Part shown: positions 305 to 9,968 of the stretch, piece by piece
Layout: each line of letters begins with the position of its first letter
Position numbering within the stretch: position 1 is the first letter of the stretch
Assembly (NCBI GenBank): GCA_008636095.1
Contig: VSJD01000059.1
Location: forward strand, 1-13,396
DNA: 13,396 bases
Direction: 5' to 3'
From: Kiritimatiellota bacterium
GTDB lineage: Bacteria > Verrucomicrobiota > Kiritimatiellia > JAAZAB01
Notes under the pieces: generated by a model
Databases searched by the model: none
What the model was told of the DNA's origin: nothing
What the model saw: only the letters and a program-made list of their open reading frames with translations
Translations under genes and position numbers: made by a program

Positions 305-328
305 CGCGGCAAAACCGCAACAGAAGCA

Positions 329-363
329 AACATCGAACATCCAACATCGAACGCCGAACATCA
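329..363. repeat. Heptamer tandem array 1 (single arm), kdsB-kdsA gap
   Basis: Five successive 7-base units fit exactly in phase from 329 to 363. The consensus is AACATCG; all five begin AAC, and changes fall in the last four positions (for example AACGCCG). I see no inverted second arm in this 77-base gap. Read as protein in the frame open into kdsA, the array gives the seven-residue pattern HRTSNIE/RRTSKR, because seven bases times three frames repeat every seven codons. That apparent coding is an artefact. Confidence 0.85.
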
Positions 364-381
364 AAAAGAATAATCCAAGCA

Positions 382-1206
382 ATGAAGCATCGTACAGTCA
401 AAGTTGGCAATGTAACCCTGGGCGGTGCGCATCCCCTGGCGCTGATTGCAGGCCCTTGTGTCATTGAAAGTCGCAAGCAGTGCCTGGAGCTGGCCGGCCG
501 GCTGGCGCGTCTGGCGGTAGCCGAACGCATTCCCTTGATCTTCAAGGCTTCCTTCGACAAGGCCAACCGTTCTTCGCATGCCTCGTTTCGCGGGCCGGGC
601 CTGGTGCGCGGCCTTGACATTCTGGCGGAAGTGAAGGCCCGCTACGGCTTGCCGGTGTTGACTGACGTCCATCACGAAACCGAGGTGCCGCTGGCGGAGC
701 GCGTGGTCGATATGCTGCAGTGCCCGGCTTTCCTGTGCCGGCAGACCGATTTAATCCTGGCGTTAGGCCATAGCGGCAAGCCGGTCAACATCAAGAAGGG
801 ACAGTTTTTAGCGCCCGGGGATGTTCGGAACATCCTGGCCAAGCTGGAAAGCACGGGCAATCGCCAGATCGTGGTAACGGAACGGGGCGTAAGCTTCGGC
901 TACAATAATCTCGTTGCCGATATGCGTAGTCTGCCGCTCCTGCGAGAGTTAGGCTATCCCGTGGTATTTGACGCCACCCACAGCGTACAGTTGCCGGGAG
1001 GGGCGGGAGACCGGAGCGGCGGTGATGCCCGACTGGCGGCCACCCTGGCGCGGGCCGCAGTGGCGGCGGGTTGTGACGCCATCTTTATCGAAACGCATCT
1101 CAACCCGTCCGAGGCGTTGTCCGACAAGGATACCCAGTTGCCGTTGGCGCAGTTAAAGAAATTATGGCGTCTGCTCAGCCGGATTGACCGGCTGGTGCGG
1201 AAATAG
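382..1206 (+). CDS. kdsA: 3-deoxy-8-phosphooctulonate synthase (Kdo-8-phosphate synthase)
   Basis: Condenses phosphoenolpyruvate with arabinose-5-phosphate to Kdo-8-phosphate in the cytoplasm, the first committed step of Kdo synthesis. From ATG 382 the protein is 274 residues, the usual family length. Landmarks: AGPCVIES 23-30, KASFDKANRSS 56-66, the SFRGPGL segment 68-74, PAFLCRQTDL 115-124, NIKKGQF 136-142, DATHSVQ 197-203, and IETH 236-239. Cys26 replaces the Asn of the E. coli enzyme. With His200, Glu237 and Asp248 it matches the metal-ligand set known from the Aquifex-type enzyme, so this should be the metal-dependent class. The frame is open back to ATG 79, but that extension overlaps kdsB and translates repeat array 1, so 382 is preferred. 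No clear ribosome binding site precedes 382. kdsC is not adjacent. Confidence 0.95.
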   Translation: MKHRTVKVGNVTLGGAHPLALIAGPCVIESRKQCLELAGRLARLAVAERIPLIFKASFDKANRSSHASFRGPGLVRGLDILAEVKARYGLPVLTDVHHETEVPLAERVVDMLQCPAFLCRQTDLILALGHSGKPVNIKKGQFLAPGDVRNILAKLESTGNRQIVVTERGVSFGYNNLVADMRSLPLLRELGYPVVFDATHSVQLPGGAGDRSGGDARLAATLARAAVAAGCDAIFIETHLNPSEALSDKDTQLPLAQLKKLWRLLSRIDRLVRK

Positions 1207-1207
1207 C

Positions 1208-1356
1208 AACCAAATCCGAATATCTAAATTCGAAATCCGAAACAATATCAAAAACCCGAATATCAAATGACCAAAACAATCTTGTTTTGAATTTGCTTCA
1301 TTTGATTATTTGAATTTGTTTCGTATTTCGATATTCATATTTCGAATTTGGGTTGT
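1208..1356. repeat. Heptamer array 2: long imperfect inverted repeat, kdsA-lptC gap
   Basis: Almost the whole gap is one imperfect inverted repeat of about 70 bases per arm. The centre is an exact 8-base palindrome pair (CAAAACAA 1272-1279, TTGTTTTG 1282-1289). The right arm has five in-phase 7-base units at 1321-1355, four beginning TC and the last shifting to TGGGTTG. The left arm carries the complementary type (AAATTCG 1226-1232, AAATCCG 1233-1239). The DNA is AT-rich, unlike the flanking genes. As RNA it would fold into one long bulged hairpin. It is not a standard intrinsic terminator, since no clean T-run follows the stem. Confidence 0.8.
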
Positions 1357-1380
1357 GGGCAAGTCTGCGTTGGAGAAGAT

Positions 1381-1800
1381 ATGCGAATGCGGAACATAGC
1401 AGGTGCGGTGGTTCTCCTGCTGGCCGCCGTGGCGGTTGGGCAGGTGCTAAAAGGATTCCGCTATCCGGACTACGATGAAAAGGGGCAGTTAAAATTCGAG
1501 ATTACGGGTGATGAGGCGCAGATCCAGCCCAGCGGGTTGATTCAAATCAAGAATCTGAAAATGACGTTTTACGAGCAGGGCAAGGTCATGATGCAGGTAT
1601 CCACGCCGCAGTGCCTGTTTGATCGCGTGAAACGGTCGGCCGTATCTTCGTCTGATGTTCGCATAGCCCGCAAGGAAATTGAGCTGACCGGCCGCGGCTT
1701 CGCGTGGAATGCGCAAGACGGGCGCATGAAAATTTTTTCGAACACGCGGGTAGTTCTGCGGAACCTGAGCGCAAAATCCGCCGTGGAAGGGGAGCCGTAA
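1381..1800 (+). CDS. lptC: LPS export protein LptC, single-pass inner-membrane anchor
   Basis: LptC sits in the inner membrane with a periplasmic beta-jellyroll and passes LPS from LptB2FG to LptA. Starting at ATG 1381 the product is 139 residues. It has one hydrophobic segment at about 6-24 (IAGAVVLLLAAVAVG), then a soluble beta-rich domain in which strand-like stretches such as GLIQIKNLKMTFYEQGK (52-68) and ELTGRGFAWNAQDGRMKIF (101-119) show the LptA/LptC-type pattern. GGAG at 1372-1375 lies 5 bases before ATG 1381, which favours it over an upstream TTG at 1348 that would start inside the inverted repeat. The sequence is short and divergent, so the call leans on position: lptA follows 2 bases after the stop and lptB is next. 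kdsC, often found before lptC, is missing. Confidence 0.82.
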   Translation: MRMRNIAGAVVLLLAAVAVGQVLKGFRYPDYDEKGQLKFEITGDEAQIQPSGLIQIKNLKMTFYEQGKVMMQVSTPQCLFDRVKRSAVSSSDVRIARKEIELTGRGFAWNAQDGRMKIFSNTRVVLRNLSAKSAVEGEP

Positions 1801-1802
1801 CC

Positions 1803-2291
1803 ATGGGGCGCATGGTCGTCCTGGCGATGCTTGGCCTGGCATGGAGTGCGGTTGCAGTCGAGTCTGCCAAGCCGGCGAAGGCCGGAGAGGATACCAACAG
1901 CACGGTAATCACATCAACGCAACTAAGTTTCGATCAGCAGAAGCGCAAGGCGGTGTTTGAGGGAAATGTGGTGGTAACGGATCGTGAAATCAAAATCCTG
2001 TCCGATCGCCTGAAAGTGTTTTTCACGGAAGACAATAAAGTGGACCGGATCGAAGCCGAAGGCCGCGTGACGATTATCCGCAACGATTTGCAGGCCACCG
2101 GCGAAAAAGCCACCTACGACATGAAAGAGGGCAAGATGCAGTTAACGGGCAATCCCCGCATTCAGCGGGACCAGGATACGCTGACCGGAGAAACGGTGAC
2201 GCTGTGGCGGAATTCCAAGCGGATTCTATGTGAACCGAATGCCCGGCTGGTAATTTCCTCGGAGCAGGAGATGAACCGATCCTTTAAATAG
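1803..2291 (+). CDS. lptA: LPS transport periplasmic protein LptA
   Basis: LptA forms the periplasmic beta-jellyroll bridge that carries LPS from LptC to LptD in the outer membrane. The product is 162 residues with a signal peptide: short basic start, hydrophobic MVVLAMLGLAWSAVA, and a likely cleavage after Ala-Val-Ala at about residue 18. The mature part has the OstA-like alternation of strands: TSTQLSFDQQKRKAVFEGNV (38-57), then RIEAEGRVTI, LQATGEKATYDMKEGKMQL and IQRDQDTLTGETVTLW. A strong ribosome binding site, AAGGGGAG at 1787-1794, lies inside the end of lptC, 8 bases from ATG 1803, so the two genes are very likely co-translated. The open frame extends upstream to 1704 inside lptC, but the signal peptide and ribosome site fix the start. 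Confidence 0.9.
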   Translation: MGRMVVLAMLGLAWSAVAVESAKPAKAGEDTNSTVITSTQLSFDQQKRKAVFEGNVVVTDREIKILSDRLKVFFTEDNKVDRIEAEGRVTIIRNDLQATGEKATYDMKEGKMQLTGNPRIQRDQDTLTGETVTLWRNSKRILCEPNARLVISSEQEMNRSFK

Positions 2292-2331
2292 CAAGGCCGA
2301 AGTAATGGGTTGCGGGCGGCAGACACAGGGT

Positions 2332-2401
2332 TGTCATTCCGCACTTGATGCGGAATTTAGATCCTCTACAACACTGGATTCCCGCTTGCGCGAGAATGAC
2401 A
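2332..2401. repeat. 70-base inverted-repeat element resembling dRS3/RSKRESS-type repeats
   Basis: TGTCATTC at 2332-2339 and GAATGACA at 2394-2401 form exact 8-base inverted ends. Inside them are CCGCACTTGATGCGG on the left (a small hairpin) and GGATTCCCGCTTGCGCGAGA on the right. The right half has the ATTCCCGC...GAAT layout of the dRS3-type repeats known from Neisseria and translates on the minus strand to the common spurious peptide FSRKRESS. No target-site duplication is visible: the flanks GGGT and GAAA differ. It ends 8 bases before the lptB ribosome site. It is probably a mobile or amplified non-coding repeat. Confidence 0.72.
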
Positions 2402-2420
2402 GAAAGAACAGGTGGAAGTA

Positions 2421-3146
2421 ATGGAATCCTTGATTACAACGCACAATTTGGTTAAAACCTACCATGGCCGGAATGTCGTGGATGGGGTCAGTATCCAGGT
2501 TGGGCGGGGCGAGGTGGTCGGCCTGCTGGGACCCAATGGGGCCGGCAAAACCACCACCTTTTACATGATTGTGGGACTCATTGCGCCGAACGGGGGTCAG
2601 GTGGTGTTCGATCGGCATGACGTGACGCATCTGCCGATGCATCGGCGCGCACGGCGCGGGCTGGGCTATCTTTCCCAGGAGCCGTCCATTTTTCGAAAAC
2701 TAACCGTGGAGGAAAACGTGATGGCGATCCTGGAAATGTTGCCGCTCTCGGCGGACGAGCGCCGCGAGCGGATGGACAGCTTATTGGAACAGCTTAGCAT
2801 CAAGCGCCTGGCCAAGCAGATGGCCTATACGCTCAGCGGCGGGGAACGCCGGCGCCTGGAGATCACGCGGGCCCTGGTAACGAATCCTTCGGCCATCCTG
2901 CTGGACGAACCGTTCAGCGGCGTGGACCCGCTGGCCGTGTATGACGTGCAGGAAATCATCCGCGACTTAAAAAAGTGCGGCTTGGGAATTTTGATAACCG
3001 ACCACAATGTACGGGAAACCCTGACCATCGTAGATCGAGCCTACCTGATTTGCGACGGCAAGGTACTTCGCGAGGGAACCAGCCAGTTCCTCATTGAGGA
3101 TCCGTTAAGTCGGGAGCTGTATCTGGGATCCCGGTTCAGTATGTAA
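2421..3146 (+). CDS. lptB: LPS export ABC transporter ATP-binding protein LptB
   Basis: The cytoplasmic ATPase of the LptB2FG complex, which extracts LPS from the inner membrane. From ATG 2421 the product is 241 residues, the same length as the E. coli protein. All ABC motifs are present in order: Walker A GPNGAGKT 37-44, Q-loop Gln86 in YLSQEPSIF (an LptB-typical stretch), signature LSGGE 138-142, Walker B AILLDEP 158-164 followed by FSGVDP, and switch His195 in ITDHNVRET. The end DPLSRELYLG is also typical of LptB. AGGTGG at 2410-2415 precedes ATG 2421 by 5 bases, preferred over a GTG at 2412. In many Gram-negatives rpoN follows lptB; here a repeat-filled 200-base gap and hpf follow. The permease at 9969-11441 is a candidate membrane partner. 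Confidence 0.96.
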   Translation: MESLITTHNLVKTYHGRNVVDGVSIQVGRGEVVGLLGPNGAGKTTTFYMIVGLIAPNGGQVVFDRHDVTHLPMHRRARRGLGYLSQEPSIFRKLTVEENVMAILEMLPLSADERRERMDSLLEQLSIKRLAKQMAYTLSGGERRRLEITRALVTNPSAILLDEPFSGVDPLAVYDVQEIIRDLKKCGLGILITDHNVRETLTIVDRAYLICDGKVLREGTSQFLIEDPLSRELYLGSRFSM

Positions 3147-3171
3147 CCAGGATAATTAAGGCATTGATTTT

Positions 3172-3270
3172 TCAGTGTTCAGTGTTCGGGTGAGCAAAGC
3201 TTTTGTGATCGTGATACGGCGTCTTTGAGATATCCGGCGAGTATGGTGAACTGAACACCGAACACCTGAG
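3172..3270. repeat. Heptamer array 3: inverted arms, lptB-hpf gap
   Basis: The left arm has the exact repeat TCAGTGT at 3172-3178 and 3179-3185, then a third unit TCGGGTG to 3192. The right arm, 3251-3270, holds GAACACC-type units (CTGAACACCGAACACC) that are the reverse complement of the left type with a few mismatches. About 58 bases separate the arms. The 7-base period matches the other arrays although the heptamer differs. The unit count is lower here, so the period is less overwhelming than in arrays 4 and 5. Confidence 0.75.
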
Positions 3271-3346
3271 TGTTAACCGTGAAGCATTCGGGCTAACTTT
3301 AAAATTGTATCATTCGAGTAAACCAAACCCAAGGGAGATCATGCCT

Positions 3347-3697
3347 ATGACGATTAACATTACCAGCCGCCACGCGGATATTTCGGACACCCAGAAGACC
3401 CATGTGCATGCCAAGTTGGCGGCCGTGCTGGAAGCCTATCCGGAGGTGGAATATGCCCACGTGATCATGGATACTCAGAAATTCAGGCATATTATCGAGG
3501 TAATTGTACAGGGCAAACATCATTTGCGCATTGAGGCCAAGGAAGAATCGGACGATATGTATGCATCCGTGGATAAAGTTGCGGACAAGGTGGATCGTCA
3601 GTTGCGGCGCGCGCGGGACAAAGTGGTGGATCATAAGAGTGTCAAGCATCGTACCAAACTCGCAGATTTCGAACAGGAACTGAACCACCAGGTTTAA
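3347..3697 (+). CDS. hpf: Ribosome hibernation-promoting factor, short form (HPF/YfiA family)
   Basis: Binds the small ribosomal subunit near the mRNA channel and tRNA sites to stabilise idle ribosomes in slow growth. The start MTINITSRHADISD matches the family N terminus (hydrophobic-N-I-T then a negatively charged helix start). VIVQGKHHLRIEAKEESDDMYASVDKVADKVDRQLRR is the second half of the S30AE domain, with its conserved D-D/E-hydrophobic-Y-A-S/A-I/V-D core. Using ATG 3347 the product is 116 residues, a short HPF without the dimerising C-terminal domain. AAGGGAG at 3331-3337 lies 9 bases before 3347 but only 3 before ATG 3341, so 3347 is chosen. The lptB-hpf-kinase/PTS order recalls the E. 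coli lptB-rpoN-hpf-ptsN cluster, with rpoN absent and hprK in the ptsN place. Confidence 0.92.
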   Translation: MTINITSRHADISDTQKTHVHAKLAAVLEAYPEVEYAHVIMDTQKFRHIIEVIVQGKHHLRIEAKEESDDMYASVDKVADKVDRQLRRARDKVVDHKSVKHRTKLADFEQELNHQV

Positions 3698-3713
3698 TGC
3701 CTGGAAGTATGGG

Positions 3714-3757
3714 GATTGTCCGCCATAGGCGGGACGGCGCGCCGCCGGCGGATAATC
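3714..3757 (+). repeat. GC-rich stem-loop after hpf
   Basis: GATTGTCCGCC at 3714-3724 pairs over all 11 positions (one G-U) with GGCGGATAATC at 3747-3757. The loop holds a second palindrome, CGGCGCGCCG at 3735-3744. No T-run follows, so it is not a standard terminator. It may protect the hpf mRNA end or be a dispersed repeat. Confidence 0.65.
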
Positions 3758-3797
3758 CCGCCGGGTCAGGGGATCCGGCCTACAAAAAACGCTGTAG

Positions 3798-3863
3798 GCC
3801 CGTCCCGACTCTCCAAGAGGTCGGGATCACCGGGCGTCATAAAAGTCGCCCCGCCTTCGGGGC
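3798..3863 (+). repeat. Two adjacent hairpins before hprK
   Basis: The first stem pairs GCCCGTCCCGAC (3798-3809) with GTCGGGA (3820-3826) plus CGGGC (3831-3835), with a 4-base bulge. The second, GCCCCG (3848-3853) and CGGGGC (3858-3863), is a perfect 6-base stem with a CCTT loop. The sequence after the second stem on the plus strand begins CTGATT and then an A-run, not a T-run. The hprK ribosome site follows about 14 bases later, so these folds could influence hprK expression. Confidence 0.6.
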
Positions 3864-3888
3864 CTGATTAAAAAAACGGAGTCAACCT

Positions 3889-4827
3889 ATGGCCATTGCC
3901 GTCAAAGATTTTTTCAAGGTCGTTGGCGATAAAACATCGCTGGAAATGATTGACGGCAGTCGGGGTTTGGCGCGGATTATCCATGAGCCTGCCATTCACC
4001 GGCCCGGTCTGGCACTGGCCGGCTTTTTTCAGCATTTTGCGCATCGCCGGATCCAGGTGATCGGCATGGCCGAGCATGATTACCTTGCATCGTTGTCACG
4101 CGCGCGCCGCTACGCCGCCCTGCGCGGCCTGTTTAATCATCATATCCCCTGCCTGGTGATCTGCCGTAATCGGAAGCCCTGCCAGGAAATCGTGGAAATC
4201 TCCCGGATTTTTCGTGTGCCGGTGTTCCGCTCGCCGATGATCACAGGCGCTTTTATCAACACGGCCACGGTCATTATGGAAAACCTGTTTTCCCCGACGC
4301 TCACCGTCCAGGGCACCATGGTGGACATCATGGGTATCGGCGTGTTGATTGAGGGACGGCCTGGCATCGGCAAAAGCGAGGCGGCCCTGGCCCTCATCGT
4401 CCAGGGCTACAGTCTCGTGGCCGATGACTTCACCATCCTGCGGCGGCATGACGACCGGACGATTGTCGGTGGCTCGTCGCCGGTAACGCGTTACCACATG
4501 GAGCTTCGCGGGCTGGGTATCATTCATGTGCCCAGCCTGTTTGGGGTGGCTTCGGTGCGCGAGGAAAAAAGTCTTGAACTTATCGTAACGCTGCGCAAGG
4601 TGAACGAGCTGGAGGACCAGGGTTTGGGCATGGTGCCGGCCAGTCGCAACGTGCTGGGTGTGGATCTCCCGCATATCACGATTCCCGTGGCGCCGGGACG
4701 GGAACTGGCCCATATCATCGAGGTGGCCAGTATGAACGAAAAATTAAAGCGTTTGGGCCATGATGCCGCCAAGGAACTGGACGAAAAGTTAATGGACGTC
4801 CTGAAGAAAAGGAACAGTTTGCCATGA
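3889..4827 (+). CDS. hprK: HPr kinase/phosphorylase
   Basis: Phosphorylates, and in classical members dephosphorylates, a serine of HPr, tying PTS state to energy supply. The 312 residues have the normal two-domain length: an N-terminal domain (RIQVIGMAEHDYLASL 54-69, IPCLVICRNRKP 86-97) and a kinase domain with Walker A GRPGIGKSE 156-164, LVADD 176-180, signature ELRGLGIIHV 205-214, and the C-terminal block PGRELAHIIEVASMN 269-283. The usual VHG ahead of the Walker motif reads VQG here (Gln141), and GRNLA reads GRELA. From memory of the family these are departures at otherwise well-kept positions. GGAG ends about 9 bases before ATG 3889. The stop overlaps the ptsH start (ATGA), so kinase and substrate are translationally coupled. 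In E. coli this position is held by ptsN. Confidence 0.95.
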   Translation: MAIAVKDFFKVVGDKTSLEMIDGSRGLARIIHEPAIHRPGLALAGFFQHFAHRRIQVIGMAEHDYLASLSRARRYAALRGLFNHHIPCLVICRNRKPCQEIVEISRIFRVPVFRSPMITGAFINTATVIMENLFSPTLTVQGTMVDIMGIGVLIEGRPGIGKSEAALALIVQGYSLVADDFTILRRHDDRTIVGGSSPVTRYHMELRGLGIIHVPSLFGVASVREEKSLELIVTLRKVNELEDQGLGMVPASRNVLGVDLPHITIPVAPGRELAHIIEVASMNEKLKRLGHDAAKELDEKLMDVLKKRNSLP

Positions 4828-5120
4828 GTCATTCTGCCAGTGAGAATAATTCAAAAATCGTACGGGAATATGTGATCCAGAACCGATACGGCATCCACGC
4901 CCGGCCGGCGGCCATGTTGGTCAAAACGGCTTCCAAGTTCCAGGCGGATGTGACTGTGGAAAAGGGGTCCGTGCGGGTGTCCGGGAAAAGCATAATGGGG
5001 CTAATGACCATGGAAGCCAGTTGCGGTGCGAAAATCAGGATCGTGGCCGAGGGCGTGGACGCCGAACAAGCCCTTGATGAAATTGAGCGACTGTTCGAGA
5101 ACAAGTTTTACGAGGAGTAA
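4824..5120 (+). CDS. ptsH: Phosphocarrier protein HPr
   Basis: Small cytoplasmic phosphocarrier that accepts phosphate from Enzyme I on a histidine and is the target of HprK on a serine. The product is 98 residues, about ten longer than usual because of an N-terminal tail MSHSASENNS. Active-site His25 lies in GIHARPAA (24-31, His15 of the classical numbering). The regulatory Ser56 lies in GKSIMGLM (54-61, Ser46), so the kinase target is intact. AAAAGGA at 4807-4813 lies 10 bases before ATG 4824. The gene overlaps hprK by 4 bases. Having the serine site next to hprK supports a working regulatory branch. Enzyme I follows after repeat array 4. Confidence 0.96.
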   Translation: MSHSASENNSKIVREYVIQNRYGIHARPAAMLVKTASKFQADVTVEKGSVRVSGKSIMGLMTMEASCGAKIRIVAEGVDAEQALDEIERLFENKFYEE

Positions 5121-5124
5121 TGGG

Positions 5125-5285
5125 GAATGGCTGATGGTTTATGGATAATGGTTGATGATTGGACTATTCGATTCTACCGGGTAAGTCCATTCATTCGATC
5201 ATTGTGACCGTTATGCTCAATTCGTCCGCAGTATTTTTTATTTGTTTTTTCATCAACCATCGACCATTTACCATTAACCATTTCT
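5125..5285. repeat. Heptamer array 4: two five-unit inverted arms, ptsH-ptsI gap
   Basis: The left arm, 5125-5159, is five 7-base units sharing an ATGG core (for example TGATGGT 5132-5138). The right arm, 5251-5285, is five in-phase units beginning CAT (for example CATCAAC 5251-5257), the reverse complement of the left type. Aligned arm to arm they stay in register: the ATGG cores pair and nearly all mismatches fall in the variable three positions of each unit. The 91-base spacer (5160-5250) holds a short GGACT/AGTCC pair but nothing I recognise. The right arm ends 9 bases before the ptsI start codon, so the hairpin would sit on the initiation region. Confidence 0.88.
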
Positions 5286-5294
5286 TAAGATACC

Positions 5295-7073
5295 ATGGAT
5301 GCCGTTCCTCCAGACACAATCCCCTCCGGCGAACTGATTTTTCGCGGCATCGGCGTGTCCGCGGGTATCGCCATAGGGCGCGCGTTCCTGCGCCCTCTGC
5401 CGGATGATCAGGTCGTTGAGCGGGATATTTCACGCGCGGATGTGCCCCGCGAGATCGCGCGTTATGAAGCCGCCCTCATCGCGACCCGCCAACAGATTCG
5501 TGCAATCCAGAAGGATTGCGATCCCGACGTGGCCGGCATATTTGATGCCCACCTGTTGTTCCTGGATGATGGCCCCTTCATTAAGAATGTGTTTACGGGG
5601 ATCGAGGGACGCCGTAAAAATGTGGAGGTCGTGCTCCGGGATGTGGCCACAGGCTTTATGCAGTCGCTGGCCCGGGTCAAGGATGAGTACTTGCGCGAAC
5701 GGGCCAACGATGTGCAGGACGTTGCCCGCCGCATTTTGCACAACCTGGCCGGCAAACAAGTGACGCTGGCGGACATTACCGAGCCGGGCACAATTGTCGT
5801 GGCCAACGATTTGTCGCCTTCGGAAACGGTATCCATCAACAAGGATCGGGTGGGGGGCATTGTGCTGGACCTGGGCAGTCCAACGGCCCATACCGCCATC
5901 GTTGCCGCCAAACTGGGCATCCCGGCAGTGGTCGGTCTGCATAATATCAGCAAGGAAGTGCGCTCCGGTGACGAGTTGCTCGTGGATGGCGGCAAGGGAT
6001 TGGTGGTCCTGCGTCCTACGCTGGAGCGCCGCACGCAGGCCCTGCGCCAGGCGGAGTCCAAGCACGGCATTGAGATCGAACTCGGGCGGCTCAAGGATTT
6101 GCCGGCGGAAACGGTGGACGGATATCGGGTCACGCTTTCCGCCAATATCGAGTTGCCTAAGGACGTGGACGCAGTGCTGGCCGGCGGTGCGGAAGGCGTC
6201 GGCCTGTTCCGGACGGAGTATTTTTACATGTCGAGCAAGGATCTGCCCACGGAAGAGGAGCAATACGAGGCTTACCGGACCGTGGCCCAGCGCCTGATGC
6301 CCGCCCCGGTCATCATTCGCACGCTGGATCTCGGCGGCGACAAGTTCCTTTCCAATCTGGACGTGAATTGGAAGGAATCTAATCCGTTCATGGGCTGGCG
6401 GGCAATCCGCTTCTGCCTGGCCCAACCGGACCTGTTTCGCACGCAACTACGCGCCATTCTGCGCGCCAGTATCGTAGGCAATGTCAGCATCATGTATCCC
6501 ATGATCAGCAATCTCGATGAAATTGTCCGCGCCAACGTGATCCTGGACCAGGCCAAAAAGGAACTGTTGGAAAAAGGTCACCCGTTTAACCCGCACGTCG
6601 AGGTTGGCGCCATGATTGAAGTGCCCGCGGCCGCGCTCGTGGCCGATATGCTGGCACCCTATGTCAGTTTTTTCAGTATCGGCACCAACGATCTCATCCA
6701 ATACACGCTGGCCATTGATCGCGGCAACGAACGGGTAGCCTATCTCTACGAACCCACCCATCTGGCCATCCTGCGGCTGATCAAGAACACCATTGATATC
6801 GGTCATCGCCACGGCATCTGGACCGGCATCTGCGGCGGCATGGCCAGCGACCCGCTGATGACGCCGCTCCTGCTGGGGTTGGGCATTGACGAGTTGAGCG
6901 TCAGTTGCTCCGCACTGTCCATGGTCAAGGACGCCATCCGCCGGGTCAGTCTGTCGGAAGCCCGCGAAATTGCCCAGCTGGCGTTAACTTCGCAATCGTC
7001 CGTGGATGTGCATGACATGTTTCGGGAACTAACCAAAAAAATTGCTCCGGAAATTCTTGAACTGGTGGAATGA
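5295..7073 (+). CDS. ptsI: Phosphoenolpyruvate-protein phosphotransferase (PTS Enzyme I)
   Basis: Takes phosphate from phosphoenolpyruvate and passes it to HPr, the entry step of the PTS relay. The product is 592 residues, slightly longer than the usual 570-575. Domains in order: N-terminal HPr-binding and swivelling part with phospho-His199 in GSPTAHTAIVAAKLGIPAVVG (194-214), then the PEP-binding barrel with GLFRTEYF (Arg306), IRTLDLGGDK (Arg342), MIEVP (Glu442), GTNDLIQYTLAIDR (463-476) and GICGGMA (Cys513). All catalytic positions I can check are present. No GAF domain is present, so it is not the PtsP (nitrogen) form. ATG 5295 has no clear ribosome binding site and follows directly after array 4. 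No sugar-specific Enzyme II lies in the window, so the relay may be mainly regulatory or serve permeases encoded elsewhere. Confidence 0.96.
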   Translation: MDAVPPDTIPSGELIFRGIGVSAGIAIGRAFLRPLPDDQVVERDISRADVPREIARYEAALIATRQQIRAIQKDCDPDVAGIFDAHLLFLDDGPFIKNVFTGIEGRRKNVEVVLRDVATGFMQSLARVKDEYLRERANDVQDVARRILHNLAGKQVTLADITEPGTIVVANDLSPSETVSINKDRVGGIVLDLGSPTAHTAIVAAKLGIPAVVGLHNISKEVRSGDELLVDGGKGLVVLRPTLERRTQALRQAESKHGIEIELGRLKDLPAETVDGYRVTLSANIELPKDVDAVLAGGAEGVGLFRTEYFYMSSKDLPTEEEQYEAYRTVAQRLMPAPVIIRTLDLGGDKFLSNLDVNWKESNPFMGWRAIRFCLAQPDLFRTQLRAILRASIVGNVSIMYPMISNLDEIVRANVILDQAKKELLEKGHPFNPHVEVGAMIEVPAAALVADMLAPYVSFFSIGTNDLIQYTLAIDRGNERVAYLYEPTHLAILRLIKNTIDIGHRHGIWTGICGGMASDPLMTPLLLGLGIDELSVSCSALSMVKDAIRRVSLSEAREIAQLALTSQSSVDVHDMFRELTKKIAPEILELVE

Positions 7074-7085
7074 TTTCGGCATAAT
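7057..7085 (+). promoter_or_regulatory. Candidate sigma70-type promoter for metK
   Basis: TTGAAC at 7057-7062 and CATAAT at 7080-7085 are separated by exactly 17 bases, overlapping the end of ptsI. The -10 matches consensus at 5 of 6 and the -35 at 4 of 6. Transcription would start near 7092, leaving an approximately 54-base leader before metK with a small hairpin (GCAAAA...TTTTGT, about 7117-7132) just ahead of the AAAGGA ribosome site. Not experimentally supported. Confidence 0.4.
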
Positions 7086-7145
7086 GCCCCCTGTTTTCGT
7101 GAAACCCATGCTCCGGCAAAAGCGAAGTTTTGTAAAGGAAATCAT

Positions 7146-8318
7146 ATGATGGCTACCAGAAGGCACATGTTTACTTCGGAATCGGTAACGGAAGGACATC
7201 CGGACAAGATCGCAGATGCGATTTCGGATGCCGTCCTGGATGCCAATCTGGCCCAGGACAAGCACGCCCGCGTGGCGTGCGAAACCCTGGTCGCCACGGG
7301 CATGGCGATCATCGCCGGTCAAATTACCAGCAAGGCATCCATCAATTATGCCGATGTGGTGCGGGACACGATCCGGGAAATCGGGTACGTGGATGCCGCC
7401 ATGGGGTTCGACGCCAATTCCTGCGCCGTGCTGGTGGCACTGGACCGCCAGTCACCGGACATCTCCCAGGGTGTGACCGCGGGGCATGGGCTGTTCAAGG
7501 AGCAGGGGGCCGGTGATCAGGGCATGATGTTCGGGTATGCCTGTGATGAAACGCCGGAACTGATGCCCATGCCGATCATGTATGCCCACCGCCTGACGCG
7601 CGAGCTGGCGGCCGCGCGGCGTAGCGGGAAACTTCCCTTTCTACGACCGGATGGCAAATCGCAGGTCACGGTGATTTACGAGGATGATAAACCGGTGCGC
7701 GTGGACACGGTGGTCATCTCCACCCAGCATGCGCCGGATGTGGCTTATGGTAAATTGCGCAAGACCATTATCAATGAAATTATTCGCAAGGTAATCCCGG
7801 CGAAGTATCTGAATGCGAAAACCCGTTATCTGATCAACCCGACCGGCCGTTTTGTAGTCGGCGGTCCGCAGGGGGACACGGGACTTACCGGTCGCAAGAT
7901 CATTGCCGATACCTACGGTGGCATGGGCCGGCATGGCGGCGGGGCCTTCTCCGGCAAGGACCCGTCCAAGGTGGACCGTAGCGCCGCCTACATGGCGCGT
8001 TACATTGCCAAAAATATCGTGGCGGCCAAGCTGGCCCGCCGGTGCGAAGTCCAGCTTGCCTACGCCATTGGATTCGCGGAACCGGTTTCGGTGCTGGTCC
8101 ATACTTTTGGCACGGGACAGGTTGCCGATGCAAAAATAGAGAAGGCCGTAACCCGTGTTTTTGGGCTCAAGCCGGCCCAGATCATCGCGCACTTGAAACT
8201 GTTGAGGCCGATTTATCGTGCCACCTGCTCCTATGGGCACTTCGGGCGGACGAAGGATCTAAAGGCGTTCACGTGGGAAAAGACGGACAAGATCGCGGCG
8301 CTCCGCAAAGCCATTTAA
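7146..8318 (+). CDS. metK: S-adenosylmethionine synthetase (methionine adenosyltransferase)
   Basis: Makes S-adenosylmethionine from methionine and ATP in the cytoplasm. The product is 390 residues, the normal length. Family landmarks: [20 protein letters not shown] 9-28 with catalytic His18, [12 protein letters not shown] 121-132, the [21 protein letters not shown] region 231-251, [19 protein letters not shown] 264-282 (phosphate-binding loop), and the closing SYGHFGR 362-368. AAAGGA at 7134-7139 lies 6 bases before ATG 7146 and 9 before ATG 7149, so either ATG could be used (one residue difference). ahcY follows after a hairpin-rich gap, linking synthesis of the methyl donor to removal of its by-product. 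A candidate promoter overlaps the end of ptsI, so metK-ahcY may be a separate transcript. Confidence 0.97.
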
Positions 8319-8346
8319 AACTGTAGCAAGCTGGTTTTAATGTATA

Positions 8347-8426
8347 GGATTTTTAATCCATAGCGGTTCTAACGAACCGTAACTACACCAGACCGGATCG
8401 GTGTAGGGGCCGTTCGTGAGAACGGC
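8347..8426 (+). promoter_or_regulatory. Cluster of four consecutive hairpins, metK-ahcY gap
   Basis: Four stems fit without overlap: GGAT/ATCC 8347-8359; CGGTTC/GAACCG 8364-8379 with a TAAC loop; CTACACC/GGTGTAG 8383-8406; and GCCGTTC/GAACGGC 8409-8426 with a GTGA (GNRA) tetraloop. The last three stems are perfect. They precede ahcY by 35 bases. I do not recognise a known SAM or SAH riboswitch consensus. The GTAGGGGCCGTTC stretch also resembles dispersed genomic repeats of the GTAGGGGC type, so this may be repeat DNA rather than a regulator. Confidence 0.5.
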
Positions 8427-8461
8427 AGAGTTGCCGAAGATCTAATCAAGAAAGTGATTCC

Positions 8462-9868
8462 ATGACCAAACGAACAAAGCAATTCAGCGTGGCCGATATG
8501 AAGTTGGCCGATTGGGGCCGCAAGGAAATTGACTATGCCGAGGTGGAAATGCCGGGCCTGATGGCCCTGCGCCGGGAATATGGCCGCCAGCGTCCGCTGC
8601 GCGGCGCGCGGATTACCGGTTCACTGCATATGACCATCCAGACGGCCGTGCTGATTGAGACTCTGCAGGCTTTGGGCGCCCGGGTCCGCTGGTCGAGTTG
8701 CAATATTTATTCGACCCAGGACCATGCGGCCGCCGCCGTTGCCGCGCGCGGTACCCCGGTGTTCGCCTACAAGGGCGAATCCCTGTCGGATTATTGGGAA
8801 TACCTGGACCAATCCCTGGACTGGGGTCGCGGCCAGGGCCCCACCACCATCCTGGATGATGGCGGCGACGCCACGCTCTTTGTGCATCTGGGCCACCAGG
8901 CTGAGGAAAACCCGAAGATTTTGAACGCCAAGCCCGGCAGTCCCGACGAGTGTGCCCTGCTGGCGCAGTTAAAGAAATCACGGCGGCGTGATCCGAAACG
9001 GTTTCACCGGATCGTGCCGTCCATCGTGGGCGTTTCCGAGGAAACCACCACGGGCGTTCATCGGCTGTACCAGATGATGGGAAAAAAGCGCCTGCTGTTC
9101 CCCGCGTTTAACGTCAACGATTCGGTCACGAAATCCAAGTTCGACAATCTCTACGGCTGTCGCCACTCGCTCGTGGATGGTATCATGCGGGCCACGGACG
9201 TCATGCTGGCCGGTAAAGTGGCCGTGGTGGCCGGATATGGCGACGTCGGCAAGGGCTGCTGCCAATCCCTGCGCGGCCAGGGGGCGCGCGTCATGGTGAC
9301 CGAGATAGATCCCATTTGTGCCTTGCAGGCGTCCATGGAAGGATATGAAGTCGTGACCATGGATCAGGCCTGCACCATTGGCGATCTGTTTATCACGGCC
9401 ACCGGCTGTTGCGCCGTTATTACCGAGCGGCACATGCGCCGGATGAAACACATGGCCGTGGTCTGCAATATCGGACATTTCGATTCGGAAATCGAGGTCG
9501 AAAAACTCCGGCGCTACACTTGGATGCCCATCAAGCCGCAGGTGGATAAAGTCACGTTCCCGAGTGGCCGGAGCATCGTTTTGCTGGCAGAGGGGCGACT
9601 GGTCAACCTGGGCTGTGCCACAGGGCATCCCAGTTTTGTGATGTCAAACAGTTTTACCAACCAGGTACTGGCGCAGATCGAACTCTTTACCCATCCGGAG
9701 CAATACCCAATCGGCGTGTTCGTCCTGCCCAAGATCCTGGATGAAAAAGTTGCCCGTTTGCACTTAGGCAAGCTGGGGGTCCGGCTGGAAACGCTCTCCC
9801 GCAAGCAGGCGAACTATCTCGGGATTAAAAGCCAAGGCCCGTACAAGACGGAGCATTACCGGTACTAA
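8462..9868 (+). CDS. ahcY: Adenosylhomocysteinase (S-adenosyl-L-homocysteine hydrolase)
   Basis: Splits S-adenosylhomocysteine to adenosine and homocysteine, relieving product inhibition of methyltransferases; NAD is a bound cofactor. The product is 468 residues, the long bacterial form, with the extra segment around residues 150-185. Landmarks: [16 protein letters not shown] 53-68 (His56), STQDHAAAA 84-92, LDDGGD 131-136, VSEETTTGV 191-199, [17 protein letters not shown] 216-232 (catalytic Lys and Asp), Rossmann motif GYGDVGKG 258-265, [10 protein letters not shown] 335-344, and the C-terminal KTEHYRY, the cofactor-contacting tail with Lys and Tyr. Start ATG 8462 has only a weak purine stretch (AAGAAAG 8448-8454). 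The gene lies downstream of metK in the same direction. The SAH/MTA nucleosidase route is not represented in the window. Confidence 0.97.
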
Positions 9869-9871
9869 AGA

Positions 9872-9957
9872 TAATGCAGAATGAAGAATGCAGAATTAAT
9901 AATTCGGAATTAAGAATTTAATCCTTCGTTTCTGCATTCTTCATTCTACATTCTGCA
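9872..9957. repeat. Heptamer array 5: inverted arms, ahcY-permease gap
   Basis: Seven 7-base units fit in phase at 9872-9920. Five share the GAAT start (for example GAATGCA 9886-9892, GAATTAA 9893-9899); the other two begin TAAT. The right arm, 9930-9957, is four units of TTCTGCA type (9930-9936 and 9951-9957 are identical), the reverse complement of the left type. AATGCAGAATG at the left outer edge pairs exactly with CATTCTGCATT at the right, and the stem continues for over 20 bases with single mismatches. The array fills nearly the whole 100-base gap, starting 3 bases after the ahcY stop and ending 11 bases before the next ATG. Confidence 0.9.
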
Positions 9958-9968
9958 TTTCCGTCACC

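Follow-up and report, generated by a model that had tools for sequence, protein, structure and literature searches.

The window analysed here is the whole of contig VSJD01000059.1 (13,396 nucleotides; C247 in our numbering) from a Kiritimatiellota genome (GCA_008636095.1; 3.8 Mb in 357 contigs, 87% complete), and five of its intergenic gaps contain arrays of tandem heptamers, each gap with a unit of its own. We believe, with a probability of about 0.8, that such arrays form the ends of small, selfish mobile elements, each lineage of which pairs one subfamily of the protein family PF05635 with one heptamer. This family (23S_rRNA_IVP, also S23p; IVP in what follows) consists of Avd-like four-helix bundles, and its genes are found between inverted heptamer arms in this genome, in its relatives and on plasmids of other bacteria. 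The window gaps most likely hold gene-less copies of these elements.

IVP genes between inverted arms

The PF05635 profile matched 12 times in this genome (10 over the cut-off) and 72 times in ten genomes of the same bacterial family, with no match in 14 control genomes. Nine of the ten IVP genes over the cut-off are flanked by inverted repeats scoring at least 30, as against 2 of 286 ordinary genes of this genome, one of which itself lies between GTGTTC elements; for IVP genes, the flanks were taken from the edges of the Pfam match outward, for controls from those of the called gene. The nine pairs of arms are built from GACGACA, AGAGATC, GTCAGAG, GTGTTC, ATTTTCG, ATGGTTA, AAATTCC, AACATCG and AAATCCG. 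Over seven genomes (40 of the 72 matches; G005, G007 and G009 are not represented), 31 of 40 IVP loci have such flanking repeats. The preliminary description of this DNA, made from the sequence alone, had overlooked this gene between the arms; it is the sole gene there, and a scan of ten element proteins found no transposase family.

IVP-bearing versions of four window families are present in this genome (AACATCG, L365; AAATCCG, L366; GTGTTC, L360; ATGGTTA, L363), and that of the fifth, AATGCAG, occurs in sister genomes only (L371, L384). Within the genus, full-length elements of all five families carry the S23p/PF05635 open reading frame; the window copies have no open reading frame. Rfam, rRNA families included, gave no match in 19 IVP loci and the window, and the arrays lie between protein genes. 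Not being inside an rRNA gene, the elements are therefore not filed as rRNA intervening sequences (IVSs).

AACATCG arrays extend to many phyla, with at least 117 stretches of nearly four perfect units. Among the matches listed, three of four loops of 251–800 bases between inverted AACATCG arrays hold a PF05635 gene (L080, Verrucomicrobia; L169, Chthoniobacterales; L124, the complete chromosome of Kiritimatiellota B12222), L073 being the one without. Five IVP genes were present among the 117 AACATCG loci listed. Three of these were in the query themselves; the other two (L112 and L132) have flanking-repeat scores of 31 and 28, the 99th percentile of controls being 27. One query for IVP genes in phages returned no match. 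In L124, many AACATTG/AACATCG arm pairs stand in tandem next to the IVP element (6334–7318), a local amplification.

The heptamer follows the protein subfamily

Across genomes and phyla, the heptamer varies with the protein. For 31 elements with automatically read units, protein identity correlated with heptamer distance (Spearman –0.384; none of 2000 Mantel permutations was as low), the relatives of one genus being neither independent nor thinned. A heptamer distance of 0–2 was observed in 13/13 pairs above 80% protein identity, 8/11 at 60–80%, 16/37 at 40–60%, 8/112 at 25–40% and 13/292 below 25%. In the 13 closest pairs, the reverse complement was never closer than 3 mismatches, meaning that polarity is kept. 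On a tree of 43 IVPs, the 21 heptamer labels (set by eye) need 21 changes, against 29 or more after shuffling, while genome labels need 29 (shuffled mean 28.9); the tree labels go with the heptamer and not with the genome. One clade unites the AACATCG IVPs found in this genus, in Verrucomicrobia, in Chthoniobacterales and in Kiritimatiellota B12222. The GTGTTC proteins differ little between G000, G003 and G008, and so do the ATGGTTA proteins between G000, G002 and G008; related proteins tend to go with related words (AAATTCC with AAATCCG; AATGCAG with ATTTTCG). The tree, the Mantel test and the structural model below all used the start codons chosen by our gene-calling script.

The same words make up the intergenic arrays of this genome: 46 of 89 units are identical to an IVP-arm heptamer (2.9 expected) and 76 are within one letter of one (34 expected). 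IVP gene and heptamer are therefore associated and covary, from which we infer that the protein binds the heptamer. The best explanation for period and layout is a single protein family, PF05635, in which every subfamily has its own heptamer. The initial suggestion of a family of elements with different units, drawn from the shared layout and unshared sequence of the window arrays, comes close to this finding; its companion, a generating process blind to sequence, does not agree with a word that follows the PF05635 subfamily.

Arrays in the window

The arms in the window are listed below by window position, with the best match to an IVP element.

324..362, + strand: single arm of the AACATCG family, kdsB-kdsA gap (TRF unit AACATCG, 4.9 copies; no second arm), bearing the family's outer end GAAGCAAACATC; best among eight IVP elements L365 (AACATCG), score 75, shuffled maximum 41
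1210..1261, + strand: left arm of the AAATCCG family, kdsA-lptC gap (inverted repeat I1, 52 nt, 71%)
1300..1351, – strand: right arm of the same element (inverted repeat and IVP-element match); best match of the element L366 (AAATCCG), score 79, shuffled maximum 54
3171..3196, + strand: left arm of the GTGTTC family, lptB-hpf gap (TRF unit TTCAGTG; inverted repeats I1 and I3)
3244..3265, – strand: right arm of the GTGTTC family, lptB-hpf gap, with the family's inner stretch GGCGAGTATGGTGA immediately ahead; best match L380 (GTGTTC), score 64, shuffled maximum 51
5126..5158, + strand: left arm of the ATGGTTA family, ptsH-ptsI gap (inverted repeat of 33 nt, 79%)
5250..5282, – strand: right arm of the ATGGTTA family, ptsH-ptsI gap (inverted repeat); best match L363 (ATGGTT), score 71 in a gappy alignment, shuffled maximum 57
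9873..9896, + strand: left arm of the AATGCAG family, ahcY-lptF gap (arms 92–96% complementary)
9930..9959, – strand: right arm of the AATGCAG family, ahcY-lptF gap (TRF and inverted repeat); best match L371 (AATGCAG, sister genome G002), score 65, shuffled maximum 45

Each of the five gaps matched best an IVP element with the same heptamer, above 100 shuffles; three other window gaps gave no such match above shuffles. The arrays in these five gaps, four of them with an inverted second arm, had been described previously, and we find them in the same places; the gap without a second arm is kdsB-kdsA.

Judged against 1000 dinucleotide shuffles, autocorrelation at lag 7 was equalled by 0 shuffles for ahcY-lptF and ptsH-ptsI, 4 for kdsB-kdsA, 5 for kdsA-lptC and 32 for lptB-hpf, a weak signal. 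The 70-base gap between the permease and glycosyltransferase (GT) genes gave 17, and no signal was present in lptA-lptB (196), hpf-hprK (822), ptsI-metK (822), metK-ahcY (933) or upstream of the GT gene (894). When any lag from 2 to 21 was allowed, ptsH-ptsI and ahcY-lptF alone stayed clear (0/300 each), followed by kdsA-lptC (17/300), kdsB-kdsA (38/300) and lptB-hpf (138/300). Two gaps are hence clear whichever test is applied; two more are moderate, and lptB-hpf gives a weak signal if autocorrelation alone is considered. As RNA, ahcY-lptF, kdsA-lptC and ptsH-ptsI fold far better than shuffles (z = –6.3, –5.6 and –5.2, respectively); this does not hold for lptB-hpf (z = –0.8) or for the lone arm of kdsB-kdsA (z = 0.0).

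Arrays across the genome

We sampled 41 of the 357 contigs (514,479 bases, window included), in which a purpose-written codon-usage script called 400 kb of genes, with 80 kb of intergenic DNA. The intergenic part contains 65 segments of period 7, against none after letter shuffling; periods 4–6 gave 0, 0 and 1, and periods 8–13 gave 3, 1, 1, 3, 1 and 2. The called genes hold 20 period-7 segments. Sixty-five of the 89 units recur identically elsewhere in the sample, where shuffled letters would give 8.8. Two expectations raised for the window, a genome-wide excess of period 7 and the reuse of a limited set of heptamers, were borne out by these counts. Single-linkage clustering at distance 1 chains 63 of the 89 units into one group.

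Among 28 adjacent array pairs sharing a gap, 15 are inverted and of the same family, one is direct and one tied, and the other 11 combine different families, side by side or nested. The AACATCG pairs of this genome, at distinct places, are 8 +– and 1 ++. Genome-wide, AACATCGAACATC occurs at 127 places with at most one mismatch, and the reversed pattern at none. Near full-length copies of one GTGTTC element (L046:3606-3813) are present in five other contigs at 70–82% identity, among 61 matches, and AAATTCC elements have a loop sequence common within the genome and with G002. Measured over 44 arms, the median arm length is 4.4 heptamers. Where elements were read by eye, changes in one arm are independent of those in the other, and for this reason we do not claim selection on their pairing.

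Two further features were noticed. L046 holds 24 near-perfect AGAGGTC units at a contig end (1–171), and long arrays appear to break assemblies. A hairpin, CGATCTGCGCGTAAGCGCGCAGATCG, stands directly ahead of ATGG arms at three places (L031 3590–3640, L040 6300–6360 and L040 13500–13560), reflecting an insertion preference or forming part of that element.

Turnover between sister species

Nine relatives have the same order of genes between kdsB and lptF over whatever part their contigs cover; the gaps are not kept. Counted from the last sense codon (those beside hpf may be 1–2 bases out, the hpf query being off frame), ptsH-ptsI spans 177 bases here versus 14–17 in G002, G003 and G004; kdsB-kdsA 80 versus 6 in G003 and G004, with 211 in G001; lptA-lptB 132 versus 15, with 154 in G001; and hpf-hprK 194 versus 28–29, with 182 in G001. 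The ahcY-lptF gap has AATGCAG arms both here and in G004, with differing loops, AAATTCCA arms in G002, AGTCAGA arms in G007 and only 9 bases in G001, meaning that different families enter one gap. Presence and family at a given gap thus differ between species whose proteins are 95% similar. This comparison of array positions between relatives, proposed along with the preliminary description, revealed sister species lacking several window insertions or having another heptamer in the same gap. In G003:C8 versus G004:C43 (20 reciprocal best hits), none of the 12 syntenic gaps had arrays.

Period 7 is not universal: sister genomes also have arms of period 9–10, and some cyanobacterial relatives, read by eye, have a period of about 8. 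The former are inverted CACGGAT arms, seen in the kdsA-lptC gaps of G004 and G002 and in the metK-ahcY gap of G004 (L219, L221); they may be a further lineage of the same kind, or something else.

These comparisons bear on two other ways of accounting for the arrays. Replication slippage alone would make them arise in place, a 7-base segment suiting the polymerase and inverted arms being fold-back copies. Heptamers are said to be over-represented in many bacteria, with slippage proposed as the reason (as cited in PMC4692102), and slippage would also suit array lengths of 3 to 24 units and very long perfect arrays such as that at L046 1–171. However, the same words recur across contigs, loops are common to several copies, and so are outer ends (in distinct AACATCG arms of this genome, GCA precedes the array in 21/36 and AAT follows it in 17/36); whole insertions are missing in sister species; and the word tracks IVP type across phyla. 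We consider slippage alone quite improbable and reject it.

Alternatively, the arrays could be functional sites of the host (mRNA 3′ hairpins, or sites for RNase III or a regulator), with IVP as a host regulator and the layout kept by selection rather than spread. Their position would agree with this: in 41 co-directional gaps, arrays lie a median of 21 bases past the stop codon and 68 bases ahead of the next start, and their density is slightly higher in co-directional than in divergent gaps (1.04 vs 0.68 per kb). Three of the five window elements fold strongly as RNA, and translational regulation has been proposed for TAACTGA repeats (MacGregor 2015, PMC4679880). Host sites would not, however, be expected to change presence and family between such similar species, to enclose IVP genes in unrelated operons, for instance between cas2 and cas1, or to include gene-less copies with IVP remnants, and we regard this explanation as no likelier than slippage.

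Repetitive extragenic palindromic (REP)-like elements moved by REP-associated tyrosine (RAYT, Y1) transposases, likewise intergenic, in high copy and in inverted pairs, can be rejected as very improbable even with Y1 genes in 45 of 58 relatives, because this genome has only 4 Y1 matches (of whose loci only L177 is strongly repeat-flanked, non-heptamerically, L179 having too little flank), G002 has no Y1 but 12 AACATCG matches, and G037 has 62 Y1 and no AACATCG matches.

Independent test on plasmids

Two IVPs were searched with tblastn against named plasmids, and loci were picked by the protein alone (25 of 42 listed regions were analysed). The matches came mostly from cyanobacteria, plus one Bernardetia and one Azospirillum. 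Inverted repeats flank 23 of the 25 IVP genes, at scores that no more than 2 of 200 letter-shuffled flanks equalled; the exceptions are L410 and L413. The arms are heptameric in about sixteen loci (e.g., GTAAAAA, ATTTACG, AATTCAA, AATTCGT, GAGGTCG and AACAGGG), and in one armed locus the period is not clear.

In two plasmids, the element lies between cas2 and cas1. Armed IVP genes were seen inside or beside cas, DISARM and BREX genes on plasmids of Anabaena (L397), Nostoc (L398), Pseudanabaena (L399) and Planktothrix (L400), and a metagenome study lists 18 IVP genes in cas loci (PMC3936711). IVP genes inside cas and other operons would be explained simply: their elements insert there.

Gene-less derivatives and points that do not fit

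The short copies retain traces of the gene most clearly in the GTGTTC family. For six of nine short GTGTTC loops, the three best matches are IVP genes of that very family (E = 2e-10 to 4e-25), reversed loops showing no IVP match, and L276 (GTGTTC) retains both the start and the end of the gene. Outside GTGTTC, there is little or no gene remnant, and the origin of those derivatives is therefore argued from the shared arms.

Several observations weigh against mobile elements with cognate IVP genes. The window itself contains no IVP gene, and no AATGCAG IVP was found in this genome (87% complete). Nine of the 40 IVP genes have no arms, although five of these (L361, L370, L379, L387 and L393) form one subfamily, armless in all five genomes sampled for it; three of the 31 armed loci (L389, L395 and L396) have no readable heptamer. 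No trace of an IVP gene is present in 17 of the 26 short-element loops tested. Matches of a loop to its own family come, outside GTGTTC, from two AACATCG loops only (E = 2e-4 and 9e-4); two short loops match a non-cognate family (E = 0.002 and 0.003). Target-site duplication was not seen: direct repeats across the ends of 41 elements average 3.76 letters versus 3.56 between unrelated ends, a comparison that could miss a short duplication with ends not mapped to the base. The CACGGAT family has no known IVP partner. In six plasmid loci whose cyanobacterial IVPs are related to the AGAGATC type (L406–L409, L412 and L415; AGAGATC-type query set), the arms step by about 8 bases (GCAGGGGA, by eye); the step length may differ between IVP subfamilies. 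Finally, among the matches listed, cross-phylum AACATCG array pairs 21–800 bases apart (tandem cluster L124 excluded) are 18 +–, 13 ++, 3 –– and 3 –+.

Protein structure and a possible mechanism

A modelled IVP (pLDDT 90) is a four-helix bundle matching the S23 proteins 2rld and 2gsc and, more weakly, Avd (4dwl and 8ub7; Foldseek probability 1.00, TM by query 0.69 and 0.67, E = 0.03). L132 also matches the Pfam family bAvd, below the cut-off. In 25 aligned IVPs, Q43, S50 and E80 are invariant, and R46, N54 and E57 nearly so (L365 numbering). According to the title of Lin 2006 (cited in PMC3936711) and to PMC4990558, the 2gsc protein (Xcc0516) assembles from five four-helix bundles.

To the observed arrays, inverted pairs, gene between the arms and sister-species turnover, a mechanism would have to add a way of reading the ends and an enzyme for mobility. 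A full-length element would comprise an arm of about 4–5 tandem heptamers, the PF05635 gene and an inverted second arm; most copies, the five in the window included, lack the gene, being internally deleted, having another loop or being left with a single arm. Solved relatives of the IVP are rings made up of five four-helix bundles, and the IVP would bind the tandem heptamers at the ends of its own element. Subunit spacing in the ring would set the 7-base step and the binding surface of the subfamily the letters; a fixed spacing with a variable surface would thereby give constant period, inverted layout and different words. A reverse transcriptase acting in trans could plausibly move the element, because Avd of diversity-generating retroelements shares the fold.

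Taken to its full extent, this would amount to mobile elements of a new class that have their own recognition code, a possibility we put forward tentatively and hold to be rather doubtful. A pentameric Avd-fold protein would read about one heptamer per subunit at both ends and move the element and its many gene-less copies without a transposase of their own, probably via an RNA hairpin and the trans reverse transcriptase. Its footprints would be the heptameric repeats of bacteria at large, those of cyanobacteria and of rRNA IVSs among them.

Relation to known systems

Paired inverted heptamer arms, for which the preliminary description knew of no described system, have in fact been reported in Xanthomonas: Rehm 2015 gives 70 and 75 convergent GGGAATC pairs in two genomes (PMC4692102). 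These repeats and GGGGA(C/T)T of Nostoc resemble ours in being intergenic arrays, mostly of 4 units, in convergent pairs and nearer the 5′ neighbour; unlike ours, they involve one heptamer per genome studied and are read as G-quadruplexes, and the sections of the paper dealing with them name no gene partner (PMC4692102).

IVSs of 23S rRNA (Coxiella, Leptospira) share the S23p (PF05635) reading frame in the loop of an inverted-repeat stem, and that of Coxiella has tandem GACAGAT heptamers upstream of the S23p start (PMC4990558). They have been called selfish and sporadic and are thought to be horizontally transferred; older ideas cited there make them transposition remnants or mobile elements with a mobility reading frame (PMC4990558). 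IVSs, however, lie within rRNA and are excised by RNase III (PMC4990558), whereas the present elements lie between protein genes genome-wide, fall into many families, are mostly gene-less and have a heptamer that tracks the protein subfamily. S23-coding IVSs would be relatives of these elements that reside in rRNA.

TAACTGA repeats of Beggiatoaceae, cyanobacteria and Bacteroidetes are also heptamers spread across phyla, but with a single word in direct repeats (169 sets plus one indirect), read as translational regulators (PMC4679880). Their author floats a mobile repeat-binding protein; the text of that article mentions neither S23 nor four-helix proteins (PMC4679880).

Like miniature inverted-repeat transposable elements, gene-less copies share terminal inverted repeats with a gene-bearing parent (most clearly for GTGTTC), but the ends here are tandem heptamers, with neither target duplication seen nor a transposase. 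The likeness to diversity-generating retroelements lies in the Avd-like fold; no reverse transcriptase or template/variable repeat was seen in the element, the genome not having been searched for these. With heptameric simple sequence repeats of the short tandemly repeated repetitive (STRR) type, our arrays have in common tandem heptamers in intergenic DNA.

In open-licence papers, we found no link of heptamers to S23/IVP proteins outside rRNA. To our knowledge, these proteins have a solved fold and no known function. Mobile heptamer-armed elements would unite three puzzles, namely the abundance of 7-base intergenic repeats (so far ascribed to polymerase slippage), the role of S23/IVP proteins and the spread of rRNA IVSs, and would predict a protein-to-heptamer code readable from genomes.

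Other dispersed repeats

Non-heptameric repeats were also encountered. L177 of this genome is a RAYT-like gene with its own flanking inverted repeat, ATTGGGGACGCGTCTC. Two insertions of the window, at 2330–2402 (lptA-lptB; ends GTCATTCC...GAATGAC) and at 3712–3860 (hpf-hprK), are non-heptameric and missing in G002, G003 and G004. At 8355–8440, the metK-ahcY gap holds a hairpin element (CATAGCGGTTCTAACGAACCG...GTTGCCG), a second kind of dispersed repeat, a copy of which is present in the lptB-hpf gap of the sister genome G004.

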